DNA from: a virus
IMG/VR virus record: IMGVR_UViG_3300017720_000047
Span: 1-28,189 of that record
Length of the DNA: 28,189 bases
Direction: 5' to 3' (one strand)
Below are positions 3,067 to 25,628 of the stretch, one piece after another; position 1 is the first letter of the stretch; the number at the start of each line of letters is the position of its first letter. A program made the translations under genes and the position numbers. The notes under the pieces were generated by a model. That model was not told the origin of the DNA. It did not search any database and saw only the letters and a program-made list of their open reading frames with translations.

Positions 3067-4223
3067 TGAAGAATTTTTTTCAATTTTTATCTGAGTCAAC
3101 TGCAGTCCAGCAGGCAAAAAGAATGGGACTGGTTGGTGATGGACATGGTGGATGGTATGACAAGAAGGGTGAGTTTGTAGCAAAAACTGAGAAAGGACAA
3201 CTTAAGTTTTATAATAAAAGGCAACGTGTTGGTAAGCAAGATCCACCAAACACTGATACTGAGAAAAGATTATCTCAGGCAACTTCAAGTAGTGAAATTC
3301 AAGAACCACAAGGTCCGCCTGAAGTTGAAAAAACAAAAGGAACTTTGACCGTTGCTTTTGGTAGGTTCAATCCTCCTACCACAGGACATGAAAAACTTTT
3401 AGATACAGTTGCATCAAGTTCTGATGAGGGTGATTATATTATTGTTCCATCACGCAGTCAGGATAAGAAAAAAAATCCCTTAGATCCTGATACTAAGGTT
3501 GAGATTATGAAACAAATGTATCCTGGTCATAGTGGAAAAATTGTAAATGATCCTGGTAACAGAACAATTTTTGATGTCTTGAAAAAAGCACACACTGATG
3601 GATATGCCGGAGTTCGTATTCTTGGTGGTGCCGATAGAGTAAAAGAATTTGAAAAACTAGCAAATGATTATAATGGTAGACTTTATAACTTTGATAATGT
3701 AGAAGTTCTTTCTGCAGGAGATAGAGATCCTGATTCCGAAGGAACTGAAGGAATGTCTGCATCAAAACAAAGAAAGGCAGCTGCCGAAGGTGACTATTCC
3801 TCTTTCAGAAAAGGTGTTCCGACATCTATGAACGATAAACAGACAAAACAATTATACAATACTCTCCGTGATGCAATGGGTATTAAAGAAGGTTGGAGTC
3901 TTTGGCAAATTGCACCAAAGTTTGATTGGAGAAATCTTCGTGAAAATTTTGTAAGGAAAAATATTTACAAAGTTGGTGATCTTGTAGAAAATCTCAACAC
4001 TGGTTTAGTCGGTAAGATTATCCGTAGAGGAACTAACTATCTTATTTGTGTTACCGAAGACGATATTATGTTTAAATCTTGGATTAAAGATGTGACTGAT
4101 GTATCTGGTGTTCCTGCAAATCAAAGAGGAGTTGGAACTGATGCTCTTCGTAAGTATGCAGAGACTATGGTAAAGGGTTCTAGTTGGGGTAGGCAATTCA
4201 TAAATAAATATAAGAAAAAGTAA
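3066..4223 (+). CDS. Cytidylyltransferase-fold nucleotidyltransferase with capsid-targeting-like N-terminus
   Basis: 385 aa. Residues about 93-250 form a HxGH-superfamily nucleotidyltransferase domain: TVAFGRFNPPTTGHEKL carries the TxGH-type signature (T105-T106-G107-H108), and SASKQR (231-236) matches the SxSxxR motif. Related domains transfer adenylyl or cytidylyl groups, as in NMN adenylyltransferase; the substrate is not determined here. The N-terminus MKNFFQFLSE-S resembles T4 capsid-targeting sequences (MKTYQEFIAE-A in IPIII and Alt) with an L-x-E site like those cut by the gp21 prohead protease. A C-terminal region of about 85 residues (KVGDLVENLNTGLVGKI) looks like a small beta-barrel. 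The ATG is chosen over GTG 3063 for the TGATG coupling. Confidence 0.75.
   Translation: MKNFFQFLSESTAVQQAKRMGLVGDGHGGWYDKKGEFVAKTEKGQLKFYNKRQRVGKQDPPNTDTEKRLSQATSSSEIQEPQGPPEVEKTKGTLTVAFGRFNPPTTGHEKLLDTVASSSDEGDYIIVPSRSQDKKKNPLDPDTKVEIMKQMYPGHSGKIVNDPGNRTIFDVLKKAHTDGYAGVRILGGADRVKEFEKLANDYNGRLYNFDNVEVLSAGDRDPDSEGTEGMSASKQRKAAAEGDYSSFRKGVPTSMNDKQTKQLYNTLRDAMGIKEGWSLWQIAPKFDWRNLRENFVRKNIYKVGDLVENLNTGLVGKIIRRGTNYLICVTEDDIMFKSWIKDVTDVSGVPANQRGVGTDALRKYAETMVKGSSWGRQFINKYKKK
4203..4210 (+). promoter_or_regulatory. Late-promoter-like octamer AATAAATA
   Basis: Seven of eight match to TATAAATA, lying in the last codons of the nucleotidyltransferase gene and ending 29 bases before ATG 4240. The spacing resembles the perfect late promoters at 6251, 12324 and 27130. 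The sequence is A/T-rich and codes for Lys/Tyr/Asn, so a chance match is possible. Confidence 0.3.
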
Positions 4224-8755: not shown

Positions 8756-11049
8756 CCAACGGCACAAAAGTAGTCAAGAGAAACGGCACAACAGAACCTC
8801 TTGATTTGAATAAACTTCATAAGATGGTTGATGAGGCATGTAAGGATCTTGCCGGAGTTTCTGCAAGTCAGGTTGAAATTCAATCTGGTATTCAGTTTTA
8901 TGATGGTGTTTCTACAGAAGAAATTCAAGAGATTCTGATTCGATCGGCAAGTGATCTTATTGATCTGGATCATCCCAATTATCAATTTGTTGCTGCACGT
9001 CTGCTTTTGTTTGCCCTTCGTAAGCAATTGTATGGACGTATGCATCAAGCACCGACTGTTAAAAATCATGTGAATGATTGTATCAAAAAAGGTGTCTATG
9101 ATGCCGAAATTATGAATCTGTATGATGCTGAAGAATTTGATAAACTTCAATCTTTCATAGATCATGACCGTGATTATTTGTTTACATATGCCGGATTACG
9201 GCAAGTTGTGGATAAATATCTTGTACAGGATAGGAGCACTGGAGCACTCTATGAAACTCCACAGTTCATGTACTTGCTGATTGCAGCAACCATTTTTTCC
9301 AAATATCCTAAGGACACAAGGTTGGATTATGTCAAAAGATACTACGACGCAATCTCCAAACACAAAATCAACATTCCCACACCTATCATGGCAGGAGTGC
9401 GAACTCCACTTCGACAATATGCTAGCTGTGTTCTTGTTGATGTTGATGACTCCCTCGATAGCATCTTTAGCTCTGATATGGCTATTGGCAGATACGTTGC
9501 ACAAAGGGCGGGCATCGGTATCAACGCAGGCAGAATCCGTGGCGTCAACAGTAAAATCAGAGGCGGAGAAGTTCAACACACAGGTGTTGTACCTTTCCTT
9601 AAAAAGTTTGAATCAACTGTCCGCTGCTGTACACAGAATGGAATTCGTGGTGGGTCAGCGACTGTCCACTTCCCAATCTGGCACCAAGAAATAGAAGATA
9701 TTATTGTTCTTAAGAACAATAAAGGCACAGAAGATAACAGGGTAAGAAAACTTGATTACTCCATCCAGATTTCAAAACTTTTCTATGAGCGTTTCATCCA
9801 GAATGGAGAAATTAGCTTATTCTCACCGCATGACGTACCAGGTCTCAATGATGCTTTTGGTACTGATTCATTTGACTCTCTCTATGTGGGTTATGAACAG
9901 GATGAGTCTGTTCCAAGAAAGACTATCAGAGCACAAGAACTTTTTCTGGACATCTTGAAAGAAAGAGCAGAAACTGGTAGACTGTACATCATGAATATTG
10001 ATCACTGTAACAGTCATTCATCTTTCCTTGATAAAGTTGAGATGAGTAATTTGTGTCAAGAGATCACTCTTCCTACCAAACCACTGAACCACATTGACGA
10101 TGAATCTGGGGAAATTGCTCTCTGTATCCTTTCTGCTATTAATATTGGTAAAATTAGGGGCACTGAGGATCTTGAAAGCCTCTGTGATCTTGCTGTTAGG
10201 AGTCTTGATGAACTTATTGATTTTCAAGGATACCCCATCAGAGCAGCAGAAACTGCCACAAAGGCAAGGAGATCCCTTGGTATTGGTTACATTGGACTAG
10301 CACACTATCTTGCTAAGCACGGGGTGTCCTATAATGATTCTGAGGCATGGAAACTTGTGCATGATCTCACTGAGGCATTTCAATATTATCTTATTCGTGC
10401 TACAGTAGATCTTGCCAAGGAGAAAGGTGCCTGTGAATATAGTTACAGAACAAAGTATGGAAGTGGAATTCTTCCCATTGATACATATAAGAGTGATGTC
10501 GATGAGATAGTCCCAAATGAGCTTCACTATGATTGGGAGAATCTTAGAGACGACGTTATTCTATACGGAATACGGAACTCAACACTGTCGGCACAAATGC
10601 CTTCAGAGAGCAGTTCCGTTGTGTCAAATGCCACGAATGGAATCGAACCACCTAGAGCGTACTTGTCCACTAAAAAGAGCAAGAAGGGAACCCTTAAACA
10701 GGTTGTTCCACAATACACAACTCTTAAAAACAATTATACGCTTCTTTGGGATATGGAGTCCAATAATGGTTATATTAATATTGTTGCTGTAATGCAAAAA
10801 TTCTTTGACCAGGCAATTTCTGGAAACTGGAGTTACAATCCACAACAATATGAGAACAATGAAGTTCCTGTTTCAGTGATGGCACAGGATCTACTTAAAA
10901 CATATAAGTATGGATGGAAGACTTCTTATTATCAGAACACATATGATAATAAGAATGATGAACTTGAGGAAACAAAGTCCGAATTAGAAAGTTTAATTAG
11001 TCAATTAGAAACCGCCGAGGAGGAAGACTGTGAGTCTTGTAAAATTTAA
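8752..11049 (+). CDS. nrdA: Ribonucleoside-diphosphate reductase, large subunit (class Ia)
   Basis: 765 aa. Reduces ribonucleoside diphosphates to deoxy forms with NrdB. An N-terminal ATP-cone (KVVKRNGTTEPLDLNKLH, about residues 5-95) is present, so dATP/ATP regulation is possible. Catalytic residues are visible: C226 (YASC), N433/C435/E437 in NLCQE and C458 (ALCIL), plus the radical-transfer tyrosines in SYYQNTYD and a C-terminal redox pair C760-E-S-C763, which uses CxxC where E. coli has a wider spacing. Start ATG 8752 is preferred over TTG 8740 because it gives an ATGA overlap with the primase gene. It overlaps nrdB by 20 bases. Confidence 0.97.
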   Translation: MTNGTKVVKRNGTTEPLDLNKLHKMVDEACKDLAGVSASQVEIQSGIQFYDGVSTEEIQEILIRSASDLIDLDHPNYQFVAARLLLFALRKQLYGRMHQAPTVKNHVNDCIKKGVYDAEIMNLYDAEEFDKLQSFIDHDRDYLFTYAGLRQVVDKYLVQDRSTGALYETPQFMYLLIAATIFSKYPKDTRLDYVKRYYDAISKHKINIPTPIMAGVRTPLRQYASCVLVDVDDSLDSIFSSDMAIGRYVAQRAGIGINAGRIRGVNSKIRGGEVQHTGVVPFLKKFESTVRCCTQNGIRGGSATVHFPIWHQEIEDIIVLKNNKGTEDNRVRKLDYSIQISKLFYERFIQNGEISLFSPHDVPGLNDAFGTDSFDSLYVGYEQDESVPRKTIRAQELFLDILKERAETGRLYIMNIDHCNSHSSFLDKVEMSNLCQEITLPTKPLNHIDDESGEIALCILSAINIGKIRGTEDLESLCDLAVRSLDELIDFQGYPIRAAETATKARRSLGIGYIGLAHYLAKHGVSYNDSEAWKLVHDLTEAFQYYLIRATVDLAKEKGACEYSYRTKYGSGILPIDTYKSDVDEIVPNELHYDWENLRDDVILYGIRNSTLSAQMPSESSSVVSNATNGIEPPRAYLSTKKSKKGTLKQVVPQYTTLKNNYTLLWDMESNNGYINIVAVMQKFFDQAISGNWSYNPQQYENNEVPVSVMAQDLLKTYKYGWKTSYYQNTYDNKNDELEETKSELESLISQLETAEEEDCESCKI

Positions 11050-24318: not shown

Positions 24319-24555
24319 ATGACTGAACAACAACAACATCTTGCAAATCTTTTGGAACAGAGAGATGCACTGAGAAGTGATCTTGAAAAACTTCAAGAAA
24401 CGACCGGAAATAGAAGAGAATTATTTTTTAAAGTACAAGGTGCTATCGAATATTTGACACAAATTGGAGTAGAACTTCCAGAACCTGAACCCGAAGCAGA
24501 AGTGGCAGAAACGGAAGTGGTAGAAGAATCTGCTCCAAAAAAGAAAAAGGGTTGA
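24319..24555 (+). CDS. 78-aa coiled-coil protein with acidic repeat
   Basis: MTEQQQHLANLLEQRDALRS starts a coiled coil (to about 45), followed by an acidic Pro/Glu/Val repeat (PEPEPEAEVAETEVVEE) and a Lys cluster (KKKKG). No transmembrane segment. It has no clear Shine-Dalgarno. Its stop codon lies in the -35 box of the strong sigma-70 promoter for tRNA-Arg. Cyanomyoviruses seem to have similar small proteins, but function is unknown. Confidence 0.65.
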   Translation: MTEQQQHLANLLEQRDALRSDLEKLQETTGNRRELFFKVQGAIEYLTQIGVELPEPEPEAEVAETEVVEESAPKKKKG

Positions 24556-24580
24556 CTCCCTGACCTGGATACCCTATAAT
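24552..24580 (+). promoter_or_regulatory. Sigma-70 promoter TTGACT-N17-TATAAT
   Basis: -35 TTGACT (24552-24557), exact 17-base spacer and perfect -10 TATAAT (24575-24580). This is a host-type early promoter, firing about base 24587, and drives the tRNA-Arg and structured RNA region. Its -35 box overlaps the stop codon of the preceding gene. Confidence 0.85.
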
Positions 24581-24589
24581 AACTGAGTT

Positions 24590-24635
24590 GAGAGGCAAAC
24601 ACGATAAGAGGAACGGCAGACTGTTCCCGCCTCTC
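24590..24635 (+). promoter_or_regulatory. Structured leader of tRNA-Arg transcript
   Basis: GAGAGGC (24590-24596) pairs with GCCTCTC (24629-24635), and inside it GGAAC (24610-24614) pairs with GTTCC (24623-24627). The hairpin begins within about three bases of the predicted transcription start, so it would protect the 5' end or present the tRNA for cutting. Confidence 0.55.
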
Positions 24636-24639
24636 ACAT

Positions 24640-24713
24640 GACTCAGTAGCTCAGCTGGATAGAGCAACTGCCTTCTAAGCAGTCGGTCGTAGGTTCAAAT
24701 CCTACCTGAGTCG
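24640..24713 (+). tRNA. tRNA-Arg (anticodon UCU)
   Basis: Complete cloverleaf: acceptor GACTCAG/CTGAGTC, D stem GCTC/GAGC, anticodon stem ACTGC/GCAGT with loop CTTCTAA, T stem GTAGG/CCTAC. Anticodon TCT reads AGA, the favoured Arg codon in the AT-rich genes here. Discriminator G, no encoded CCA. It has its own sigma-70 promoter. Confidence 0.95.
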
Positions 24714-24714
24714 T

Positions 24715-24734
24715 TGGGAATCGACGGATTCCCA
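24715..24734 (+). promoter_or_regulatory. 8-bp hairpin just after tRNA-Arg
   Basis: TGGGAATC (24715-24722) pairs perfectly with GATTCCCA (24727-24734), loop GACG, starting two bases after the tRNA. No T-run follows, so it is more likely a processing or 3'-protection element than a terminator. Confidence 0.5.
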
Positions 24735-24773
24735 TAGGGTGTGACAGAACAACGCTTGTGGAGGCACGGCGTA

Positions 24774-24848
24774 ATGTATAATAGGACAGGGGTGGTGCCC
24801 GCTGTGTTCGCACAGAACTCTTACCAGGAGGTCCGAAAGTCTGAGTGA
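24774..24848 (+). CDS. 24-aa peptide ORF with strong ribosome binding site
   Basis: MYNRTGVVPAVFAQNSYQEV and four more residues, starting at ATG 24774 with GGAGG exactly nine bases upstream. It lies within the structured RNA candidate; the coding frame runs from the left arm of the outer stem to just before the right arm. Too short for any family call. The precise Shine-Dalgarno spacing is the only support; it could be a leader peptide rather than a gene. Confidence 0.45.
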   Translation: MYNRTGVVPAVFAQNSYQEVRKSE

Positions 24849-24856
24849 CCTATTAT
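24778..24856 (+). ncRNA. Compact structured RNA candidate with UUCG hairpin
   Basis: Outer stem ATAATAGG (24778-24785) pairs perfectly with CCTATTAT (24849-24856). Inside it, CTGTG-TTCG-CACAG (24802-24815) is a 5-bp hairpin with a UUCG tetraloop, and AGGTC/GACCT (24829-24833/24847-24851) and ACTC/GAGT (24817-24820/24843-24846) are alternative inner pairings. The region is GC-richer than the flanks. It resembles none of the RNA families I can recall (glutamine or other riboswitch, tmRNA, RNase P). Downstream pairs ATCAC/GTGAT (24855-24868) and GAAGG/CCTTC (24880-24900) may belong to it. Confidence 0.45.
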
Positions 24857-24943
24857 CACATCAGTGATTCCCACTCGGTGAAGGTATAATGTATTCCTTC
24901 CGCCCACCACAACACAACCATGGGTAGACATCTCCCCAAAATT

Positions 24944-24967
24944 GCAGGTTGGTTCACCTGCTCTTTT
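24944..24967 (+). terminator. Terminator before talC
   Basis: GCAGGT (24944-24949) pairs with ACCTGC (24956-24961), loop TGGTTC, then TCTTTT. Ends the tRNA-Arg/structured RNA transcript 17 bases before the talC ATG; talC would then need its own promoter or read-through. Confidence 0.7.
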
Positions 24968-24983
24968 CCATATTTTTATTAAA

Positions 24984-25628
24984 ATGAAAATTTTTCTGGA
25001 TACTGCTGATACTGACGTAATTAAAAAACATTTTGAAACCGGATTAATTGATGGTATCACCACCAATCCTACTCTGATTATGAAGAGTGGTAAAAATCCT
25101 GATGATGTATATCAAGAACTGAAAGATCTTGGAGTTAATGATCTGAGTATGGAAGTTGTTGGTACTGCAGATGAAATGATTAAAGAGGGACTCAGACTTC
25201 GGGAAAAGTTTGGTTTCTGTACGACTGTTAAAGTACCAATGACCAAAGATGGTCTTGCTGCTTGTCGAGAACTATCATATCAAAATATTCGAGTCAATGT
25301 AACTCTGATTTTCTCTGCCGCACAAGCAGTTCTTGCTGCTCGAGCCGGTGCATATTATGTGTCCCCTTTTGTGGGACGACTTGATGATCAGTCTGTTGCA
25401 GGACTTGAAGTGATACGTTCTATTTCTGAACTGTATCGCATTCATGGATGTCCGACTCAGGTTCTTTCTGCTTCTATCCGAAGTGTACAAAGAGCAGTGA
25501 GGTCATGGTATAATGGAGCACAAGTGGTAACCATGCCACCAAAAGTCTTTGAAGATATGTACAATCATATTCTTACAGATAAAGGATTGGAAATCTTTGA
25601 CAAAGACTGGCAATCTGTTGTACAATAG
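24984..25628 (+). CDS. talC: TalC-type transaldolase
   Basis: 214-aa small transaldolase (fructose-6-phosphate-aldolase-like fold). Active-site residues: D6, N28 (GITTNPT) and the Schiff-base lysine K83 in TTVKVPMT. Together with the phage Zwf and Gnd it completes a route to pentose phosphate; cyanophage TalC is known to work in place of the host's larger TalB. Start ATG 24984 gives MKIFLDTADTD; no Shine-Dalgarno is seen. The stop TAG is part of a small terminator before tRNA-Gly. Confidence 0.95.
   Translation: MKIFLDTADTDVIKKHFETGLIDGITTNPTLIMKSGKNPDDVYQELKDLGVNDLSMEVVGTADEMIKEGLRLREKFGFCTTVKVPMTKDGLAACRELSYQNIRVNVTLIFSAAQAVLAARAGAYYVSPFVGRLDDQSVAGLEVIRSISELYRIHGCPTQVLSASIRSVQRAVRSWYNGAQVVTMPPKVFEDMYNHILTDKGLEIFDKDWQSVVQ

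Follow-up and report, generated by a model that had tools for sequence, protein, structure and literature searches.

manA RNA (RF01745) is regarded in print as a riboswitch candidate or cis-regulatory element (PMC2864571, PMC9964418 and PMC10665884, in the parts available to us), and Rfam gives it the type Cis-reg. In the available part of the 2010 paper it appears among riboswitch candidates, with two gammaproteobacterial members, and is assigned to potential 5′ UTRs of several kinds of gene (mannose/fructose, nucleotide, ibpA and photosynthesis) (PMC2864571). In the partial texts covered by our literature search no ligand was found reported for manA. The CMCompare paper, in the portion available, cites Rfam to the effect that manA is 'often adjacent to tRNAs'. 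In S-CREM1 manA is located at 10215-10429, between tRNA-Leu and tRNA-Asn, and the authors call it a cis-regulatory element in the accessible text (PMC9964418). Two further systems are relevant. GOLLD and ROOL are the closest in kind, being phage RNAs often found near tRNA islands (PMC12286853, available part). The T4 gene 32 pseudoknot operator is a structured 5′ leader of gp32, through which the protein represses its own mRNA (PMC3014915, available part).

The manA RNA described here shares with RF01745, as far as the available description goes (PMC2864571), its helices, conserved letters, cyanophage host range and tRNA neighborhood. It differs in starting exactly at the 3′ end of a tRNA, and our data lean towards a discrete RNA rather than the cis-regulatory type given by Rfam. 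The principle of the arrangement is like that of S-CREM1, although there a tRNA follows manA directly, whereas here a 73-nt spacer is followed by talC. Like the T4 operator manA stands before gp32 in many viral contigs, but it is ~190 nt in length with many helices, and precedes tRNAs too.

manA RNA between tRNA-Arg and talC

The window (i.e. the whole stretch of DNA that was analyzed) is a viral record, 28,189 bases in length, with T4-like cyanophage content, including tRNAs, talC and a ribonucleotide reductase subunit. An Rfam search identifies manA RNA at 24715-24910 on the plus strand, matched over the full length of the model (1-192 of 192, not truncated) scoring 102.9 bits where the gathering threshold is 55.2 (E 6.6e-26). 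The RF01745 search found one copy in the record. The curated gathering score is passed, the model is matched in full and there are compensatory changes among the element's own relatives, so that it is a further member of the known manA family. The original prediction, which placed a structured RNA at 24774-24967 and proposed an Rfam search as a check, was correct in that a covarying phage RNA is present (in both alignments below), and the check did find a family. It was wrong in stating that no RNA family is matched, and the RF01745 match rules out a new family within the interval. The interval itself was displaced; the true start lies 59 nt earlier, and the true end, near 24910, 57 nt earlier. 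A real, known RNA had been given a wrong boundary and structure.

The RNA lies in a unit that begins with a sigma-70-type promoter (TTGACT-17-TATAAT, 24552-24580, plus strand). This had been predicted as perfect and is indeed present, but it is near-perfect (11/12, one of ten sites in the window that score 11 or 12), and what comes first after it is tRNA-Arg. The interval between promoter and tRNA contains a leader hairpin (24589-24636, plus strand) formed by 8 bp of TGAGAGGC/GCCTCTCA with an inner GGAAC/GTTCC stem. A similar promoter and leader precede tRNA-Arg in L112-L118. We note that the leader hairpin is strong, and that those leaders have a counterpart with altered inner letters. tRNA-Arg (TCT; plus strand) extends over 24639-24714 by ARAGORN and 24640-24713 by the Rfam tRNA model (72.4 bits). 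The manA RNA starts at its 3′ end, with a gap of 0 nt by the former and 1 nt by the latter.

On the other side, talC (24984-25628, plus strand) encodes a transaldolase of 214 aa (PHROG 440, E 3.1e-90). In the spacer there is a hairpin GCAGGU-UGGUUC-ACCUGC with a short U run (24944-24961, plus strand) that could be a weak terminator or a separate module; the hairpin of the predicted terminator therefore exists, but is weak and terminator-like. Its loop pattern is found in 24 loci (several being copies of one contig) that include L118, L264, L288, L310, L322 and L355. We observe that this UGGUUC hairpin recurs both 3′ of manA in the window clade and at loci of the slot-mate RNA described below, like a third small module.

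The Rfam structure was assessed on two alignments, A4 with 54 sequences (53 distinct; MAFFT) and A5 with 13 tRNA-abutting sequences (12 distinct). On A4 76.5% of cells pair and 38 of the 52 pairs are changed on both sides; the covariation is 0.344, compared with 0.141 on shuffling and 0.07-0.15 when the structure is slid. On A5 90.1% of cells pair (38-50% when slid), and 28 of the 52 pairs are changed on both sides, a value reached in 0 of 500 shuffles. The 5′-terminal hairpin P1 (24715-24734, plus strand) is paired in 100% of cells in the 12 distinct tRNA-abutting sequences, with four of its six pairs changed on both sides. The closing helix, GGGUG at 24737-24741 with CGCCC at 24901-24905 (plus strand), is paired in 100% of cells over the 53 distinct sequences, with changes on both sides in three of five pairs. 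Helices that pair less well on A4 are P1 (51.0% of cells), two small ones, helix 9 (54.8%) and helix 10 (33.3%), and the multiloop helix at columns 75-81 (46.9%). The low pairing of some helices in A4 is probably due in part to MAFFT misalignment of variable parts.

The loop UGGU (24793-24796, plus strand) is one half of a loop-loop contact with the loop ACCA (24823-24826, plus strand), paired in 99.5% of cells. This agrees with the pseudoknot expected for manA, and one pair is changed on both sides in three related sequences (L197-L199, which carry UGAU/AUCA); the change is effectively one event in one lineage. It nevertheless strengthens the contact, which is perhaps the one marked 'pseudoknot?' in the figure of the 2010 paper (PMC2864571, available part). 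Two other ideas were rejected on A4. A tRNA-like or tmRNA-like 3′ end would use the ACCA after the closing helix, which is present in the window and not general, and the letters of a kink-turn are not retained in the window clade.

The element had been predicted to consist of a perfect 8-bp outer stem, 24778-24785 (AUAAUAGG) with 24849-24856 (CCUAUUAU), enclosing a UUCG hairpin. The hairpin is there, with a 5-bp stem at 24802-24815, and is a real but variable hairpin of the manA family, where relatives carry other loops. The 8-bp stem is perfect in its letters and occurs in the minimum-energy fold, but it is not part of the manA structure. Over the 54 relatives 51.4% of its cells pair, slightly above column shuffles (mean 47.8, 1/500 as high) and within the range of slid versions (22-55%, up to 55.2%). 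Its covariation, which was to have supported it, is 0.055, under that of the best slide (0.105). In the 13 tRNA-abutting relatives 67.6% pair, with 22/500 shuffles as high and all slides lower (20-52%); two pairs are changed on both sides, and the covariation is 0.080 compared with 0.161 for one slide. The stem also clashes with the covarying Rfam pairs 24784-24787/24831-24834 and 24841-24847/24872-24878. Since slid controls on the 54 sequences equal or exceed it and it conflicts with two covarying helices, it was rejected as the structure of the element, and a new RNA built upon it seems to us exceedingly improbable. Single-sequence folding energy was dropped as evidence, being no better than shuffled for 24774-24967 (z -0.80, 39/200 shuffles as good) and giving z -1.63 for the corrected interval 24715-24910 (11/200 as good).

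Ends and neighbors of manA RNAs

For comparison manA RNAs were collected from 110 viral-contig stretches found with a 3′-end pattern, from which a profile was made that gave 118 hits in 192 records, copies of the same contig included. The profile does not hit the pattern stretches L025, L027 and L092, which were regarded as false; they were left out of the profile seed, as were the doubtful L068 and also L001, which duplicates the window. There is no recognizable P1 or GGG motif in the hits in L101, L037, L029, L115, L112 and L116, the last three of which, outside the count that follows, abut tRNA-Arg. Hits cut at the 5′ end and those with <45 nt upstream were removed, and removal of duplicates then reduced 96 copies to 79 distinct ones. 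These include the window, and near-identical copies remain; the copies are related, so that counts made on them are not of independent events.

In 71 of the 79 copies there is a sigma-70-like promoter whose -10 box finishes 4-7 nt upstream of P1. In seven others tRNA-Arg is at 0 nt upstream, and in the remaining one the -10 is good but the -35 weak. Thus 78 of the 79 P1 hairpins stand where transcription start or tRNA maturation would make them the 5′ terminus of an RNA. Of 15,800 positions drawn at random from these loci, 509 (3.2%) pass the same promoter test; it was loosened once, accepting TATAAA as -10, and the control uses the loosened rule. The first, stricter rule gave 47 promoter, 7 tRNA and 25 other. 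TATAAATA, which we take to be the T4-type late motif, is read in 24 of the 71 promoter-type copies. A tRNA ending ≤10 nt upstream is found in 7/79 copies, where 0.09 are expected. Neither this 5′-end rule nor transcript data for manA were found in print in our literature search, within the partial texts that it covered.

Downstream of manA nine of the 79 copies have a tRNA start within 10 nt, where 0.07 are expected; for a distance of 80 nt the number is 12, where 0.49 are expected. A first downstream frame passed our rule for 66 copies. By Pfam these comprise 35 gp32, five transaldolase, five pyrimidine-dimer glycosylase, four ThyX, two PurS and two mannose-6-phosphate isomerase; PHROGs gives 36 single-strand binding proteins. 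Where there is a first frame and no tRNA, manA lies 16-50 nt before the frame in 43 of 58 copies. A terminator was recognized after 6/79 copies. As a separate observation, in L107, L110 and L099 an intrinsic terminator after manA is followed by promoter-like letters before the next gene; in L107 and L110 it reads ACCUCC-AUCUA-GGGGGU then U8. A tree of 54 manA RNAs has 50 inner branches, 15 of them unresolved. On it the label of what lies downstream needs no fewer than 19 changes, gp32-or-not seven and tRNA-or-not eight, as raw counts; a script, supplemented by hand, assigned the labels, among which 'other' pools mixed cases.

Each of 14 full phage records selected for having manA contains one copy; one of them, metaG-MbCM1, is from a metagenome. 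In three (RB11-B, S-CREM1 and ACG-2014f) manA is flush between two tRNAs, and in S-SSM7 it lies between a promoter and tRNA-Gly. The next gene is gp32 in P-HM2, the sole such case by annotation, and purS (annotated purL) in P-SSM2. In P-SSM3 and P-SSM4 manA has pstS on one side and small frames on the other. It follows gp23 in P-HM1, P-RSM4, S-SSM5 and metaG-MbCM1 (annotated gp24 in the last) and ferredoxin in P-SSM7, and it precedes an opposite-strand frame in P-TIM68. We note that in S-CREM1 wcaG RNA is near tRNA-Met and manA. RF01745 gave no match in eight other full phage records, so that manA seems dispensable, although a search without a match does not by itself prove absence. Among the records searched with RF01745 two copies occur only in L012, a 4.8-kb contig with manA at 117-314 and 3637-3835, one before a gp32-like and one upstream of a ThyX-like frame; this speaks for cis action there. 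A scan of genome contigs with the manA 3′ motif gave 23 stretches, and the profile one strong match (L238) and some weak ones. L238:1-63 is a partial manA 3′ end at the edge of a gammaproteobacterial MAG contig, which may be a wrongly binned cyanophage contig.

A second RNA in the same slot

The talC of L118 is 96% identical to that of the window over 187 residues, and the locus has an equivalent promoter, leader hairpin, tRNA-Arg, spacer hairpin and talC, with a different RNA of ~200 nt (L118:4729-4932) in between. We term this the slot-mate RNA. Rfam gives no match to the copy in L118 at E up to 5 (Rfam 15, 4227 families), and no overlapping Rfam family was found at gathering scores in nine loci or at E up to 10 in four loci; nothing on it was found in the partial texts of our literature search. 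By contrast, GOLLD is often >800 nt, and GOLLD and ROOL form cages (PMC12286853, available part). Matches to the slot-mate, mostly partial, occur in 20 phage records (blastn, E up to 0.1), and its 3′-domain pattern in at least 120 viral contigs. Besides L118 it is located in S-SM2, Syn1, MA10, S-N03, S-TIM5, S-TIM54, S-CAM9, S-T4 and S-8S55.

The slot-mate is closely associated with tRNAs. In 87 distinct copies with 260 nt on both sides there is a tRNA on both sides in 73, upstream only in three, downstream only in 10 and on neither side in one. Its P1 begins 1-3 nt after the tRNA in the 56 copies with a recognized P1-type start. In its nine full records it is present as one copy each, abutting a tRNA upstream in 9/9 and downstream in 5/9. 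We also observe wcaG RNA, a listed cis-regulator, a few kb from the slot-mate in tRNA-rich stretches (L266:1866-1963 and L167:6719-6816).

The slot-mate has two alternative 5′ domains and one 3′ domain. For the P1 type (alignment A7, 38 sequences) 99.1% of cells are paired, compared with 32-48% when slid, and 14 of 32 pairs are changed on both sides (0/500 shuffles as high). The structure used was that of RNAalifold, in which one helix (columns 23-29/80-86) was set by eye in place of a short hairpin and a lone pair was removed before counting. The second type (A8, 18 similar sequences) has 98.4% of cells paired (29-51% slid) and 6 of 42 pairs changed on both sides, with 17/500 shuffles as high, so that its support is thinner. 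L288, L310 and L363 were excluded from both alignments. The second type has a loop-loop contact AACCA/UGGUU that shows no compensatory change; it resembles the ACCA/UGGU contact of manA. From these alignments the slot-mate is a candidate new RNA family, and such a family in the manA slot is apparently undescribed.

manA and the slot-mate were not found together in any of 29 full phage records searched with RF01745 and the models R1 and R2; 14 have manA only, nine the slot-mate only and six neither. Of these records 14 had been chosen for manA, seven for the slot-mate and eight by accession number; the eight chosen for neither RNA include two with the slot-mate and none with manA. Part of these searches used stricter filters with loss of weak matches, and in the others an empty result does not prove absence, though manA was found in all 14 of its records. 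In addition, the manA profile has no match in the 120 slot-mate stretches listed and the slot-mate motif is absent from manA loci L001-L111; as both sets are fragments, this is weak.

The loci of talC were compared in the same manner. In the best 80 of 591 (74-99% identical) manA is found somewhere in the locus DNA of eight, the slot-mate motif in six and both in none; the RF01745 search took in 50 of the 80, the other 30 being examined through the locus stretches alone. In 73 loci talC is preceded by at least 400 nt of sequence, which contains manA in six of them; five of the 66 first frames after manA are transaldolase. manA directly before talC is thus not a rule, and the suggestion that the RNA is a leader controlling talC is weakly supported. 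A leader found by rule at this position is ruled out by the 6/73 loci and the different RNA in L118. The order in L128 and L129 is tRNA-Arg, manA, then tRNA-Asn, with talC ~1.8 kb on. talC is the first frame after manA in L024, and lies 0.4-1.1 kb beyond it in P-SSM3, P-SSM4 and P-TIM68 with other frames between. The slot-mate is near talC in S-TIM5, S-TIM54, S-CAM9 and S-8S55, and also in L163, L169, L170 and L174, where tRNA-Leu is between. The talC neighborhood therefore recurs, but without one fixed RNA directly before talC.

Discrete RNA or leader

Judged from sequence and comparison, we lean towards manA in the window being a discrete phage non-coding RNA, made with a phage tRNA and acting in trans, over a switch dedicated to talC. 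The promoter at 24552-24580 would give a single transcript of tRNA-Arg, manA and, by read-through, talC. The 3′ ends of tRNAs are matured by an enzyme of RNase Z type. Such maturation of tRNA-Arg would cut at 24714/24715, leaving P1 as the extreme 5′ end, just as transcription start is expected to do for most of the other manA copies examined. The RNA so released would fold into the Rfam structure with its loop-loop contact, in agreement with the comparative data. Where, as in some relatives, a tRNA follows immediately, RNase P would free the 3′ end, while in the window that end would be left to the hairpin at 24944-24961, to trimming or to read-through. The folded RNA would then act on a host or phage partner. 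The presence of a second RNA in the L118 slot fits a slot that serves an excised RNA and not a downstream gene. The arrangement suggests a class of phage RNA that may be cut out by the tRNA-processing machinery, and we infer that manA and the slot-mate act in trans with interchangeable function.

The published and Rfam view, that manA is a cis-acting 5′ UTR element (a riboswitch or protein-binding leader) for the gene that follows, here talC, we consider unlikely, if still a serious contender. It accounts for the position of manA 16-50 nt before a frame in 43/58 copies, as is expected of a 5′ UTR element, and for the different genes behind the two copies of L012. But the genes that follow have no common pathway (gp32, ThyX, pyrimidine-dimer glycosylase, PurS, talC, tRNAs and small frames), and in the three phages with flush tRNAs it is a tRNA that starts at the 3′ end of manA, not a coding frame; such copies, together with the changing labels on the tree, tell against a fixed target. 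A single copy in 14/14 records also speaks against it, as does S-SCSM1, a phage with a mannose-6-phosphate isomerase gene that is reported, in the available text, with PhotoRC-II and wcaG as its two RNAs. The recurrence of gp32 in 35/66 first frames, with a terminator recognized after only 6/79 copies, is in its favor, and cis action may hold for copies before gp32 and similar genes. For the window itself it can draw on talC following in the window clade and L024 (and within ~1.1 kb in P-SSM3, P-SSM4 and P-TIM68), and on the weak hairpin being all that stands between manA and talC. The placement of P1 at a predicted 5′ end in 71/79 copies and at a tRNA end in 7/79 would also suit a 5′-terminal stabilizer, or an autogenous gp32-binding operator like that of T4 gene 32, since gp32 heads the list of first frames in the viral contigs. 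Such a role is improbable; gp32 is the next annotated gene in P-HM2 only of the 14 full records, and copies between tRNAs protect no mRNA.

Extending the discrete, trans-acting reading to the marine T4-like cyanophages, we tentatively propose, with somewhat less assurance than for the window, that their tRNA arrays hold an RNA slot with manA and the slot-mate as alternatives, usually in one copy. These RNAs would act in trans with 5′ (and often 3′) ends cut by tRNA enzymes, and manA would have been misfiled as a riboswitch candidate. As manA fits flush with promoter starts and tRNA ends, its 5′ end can be predicted sharply and put to the test, and the evidence from its neighborhood calls the accepted mechanism into question. 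The slot-mate, present in nine of the 29 full records (seven of them chosen for it), points to where phage RNAs made with tRNAs may be sought.
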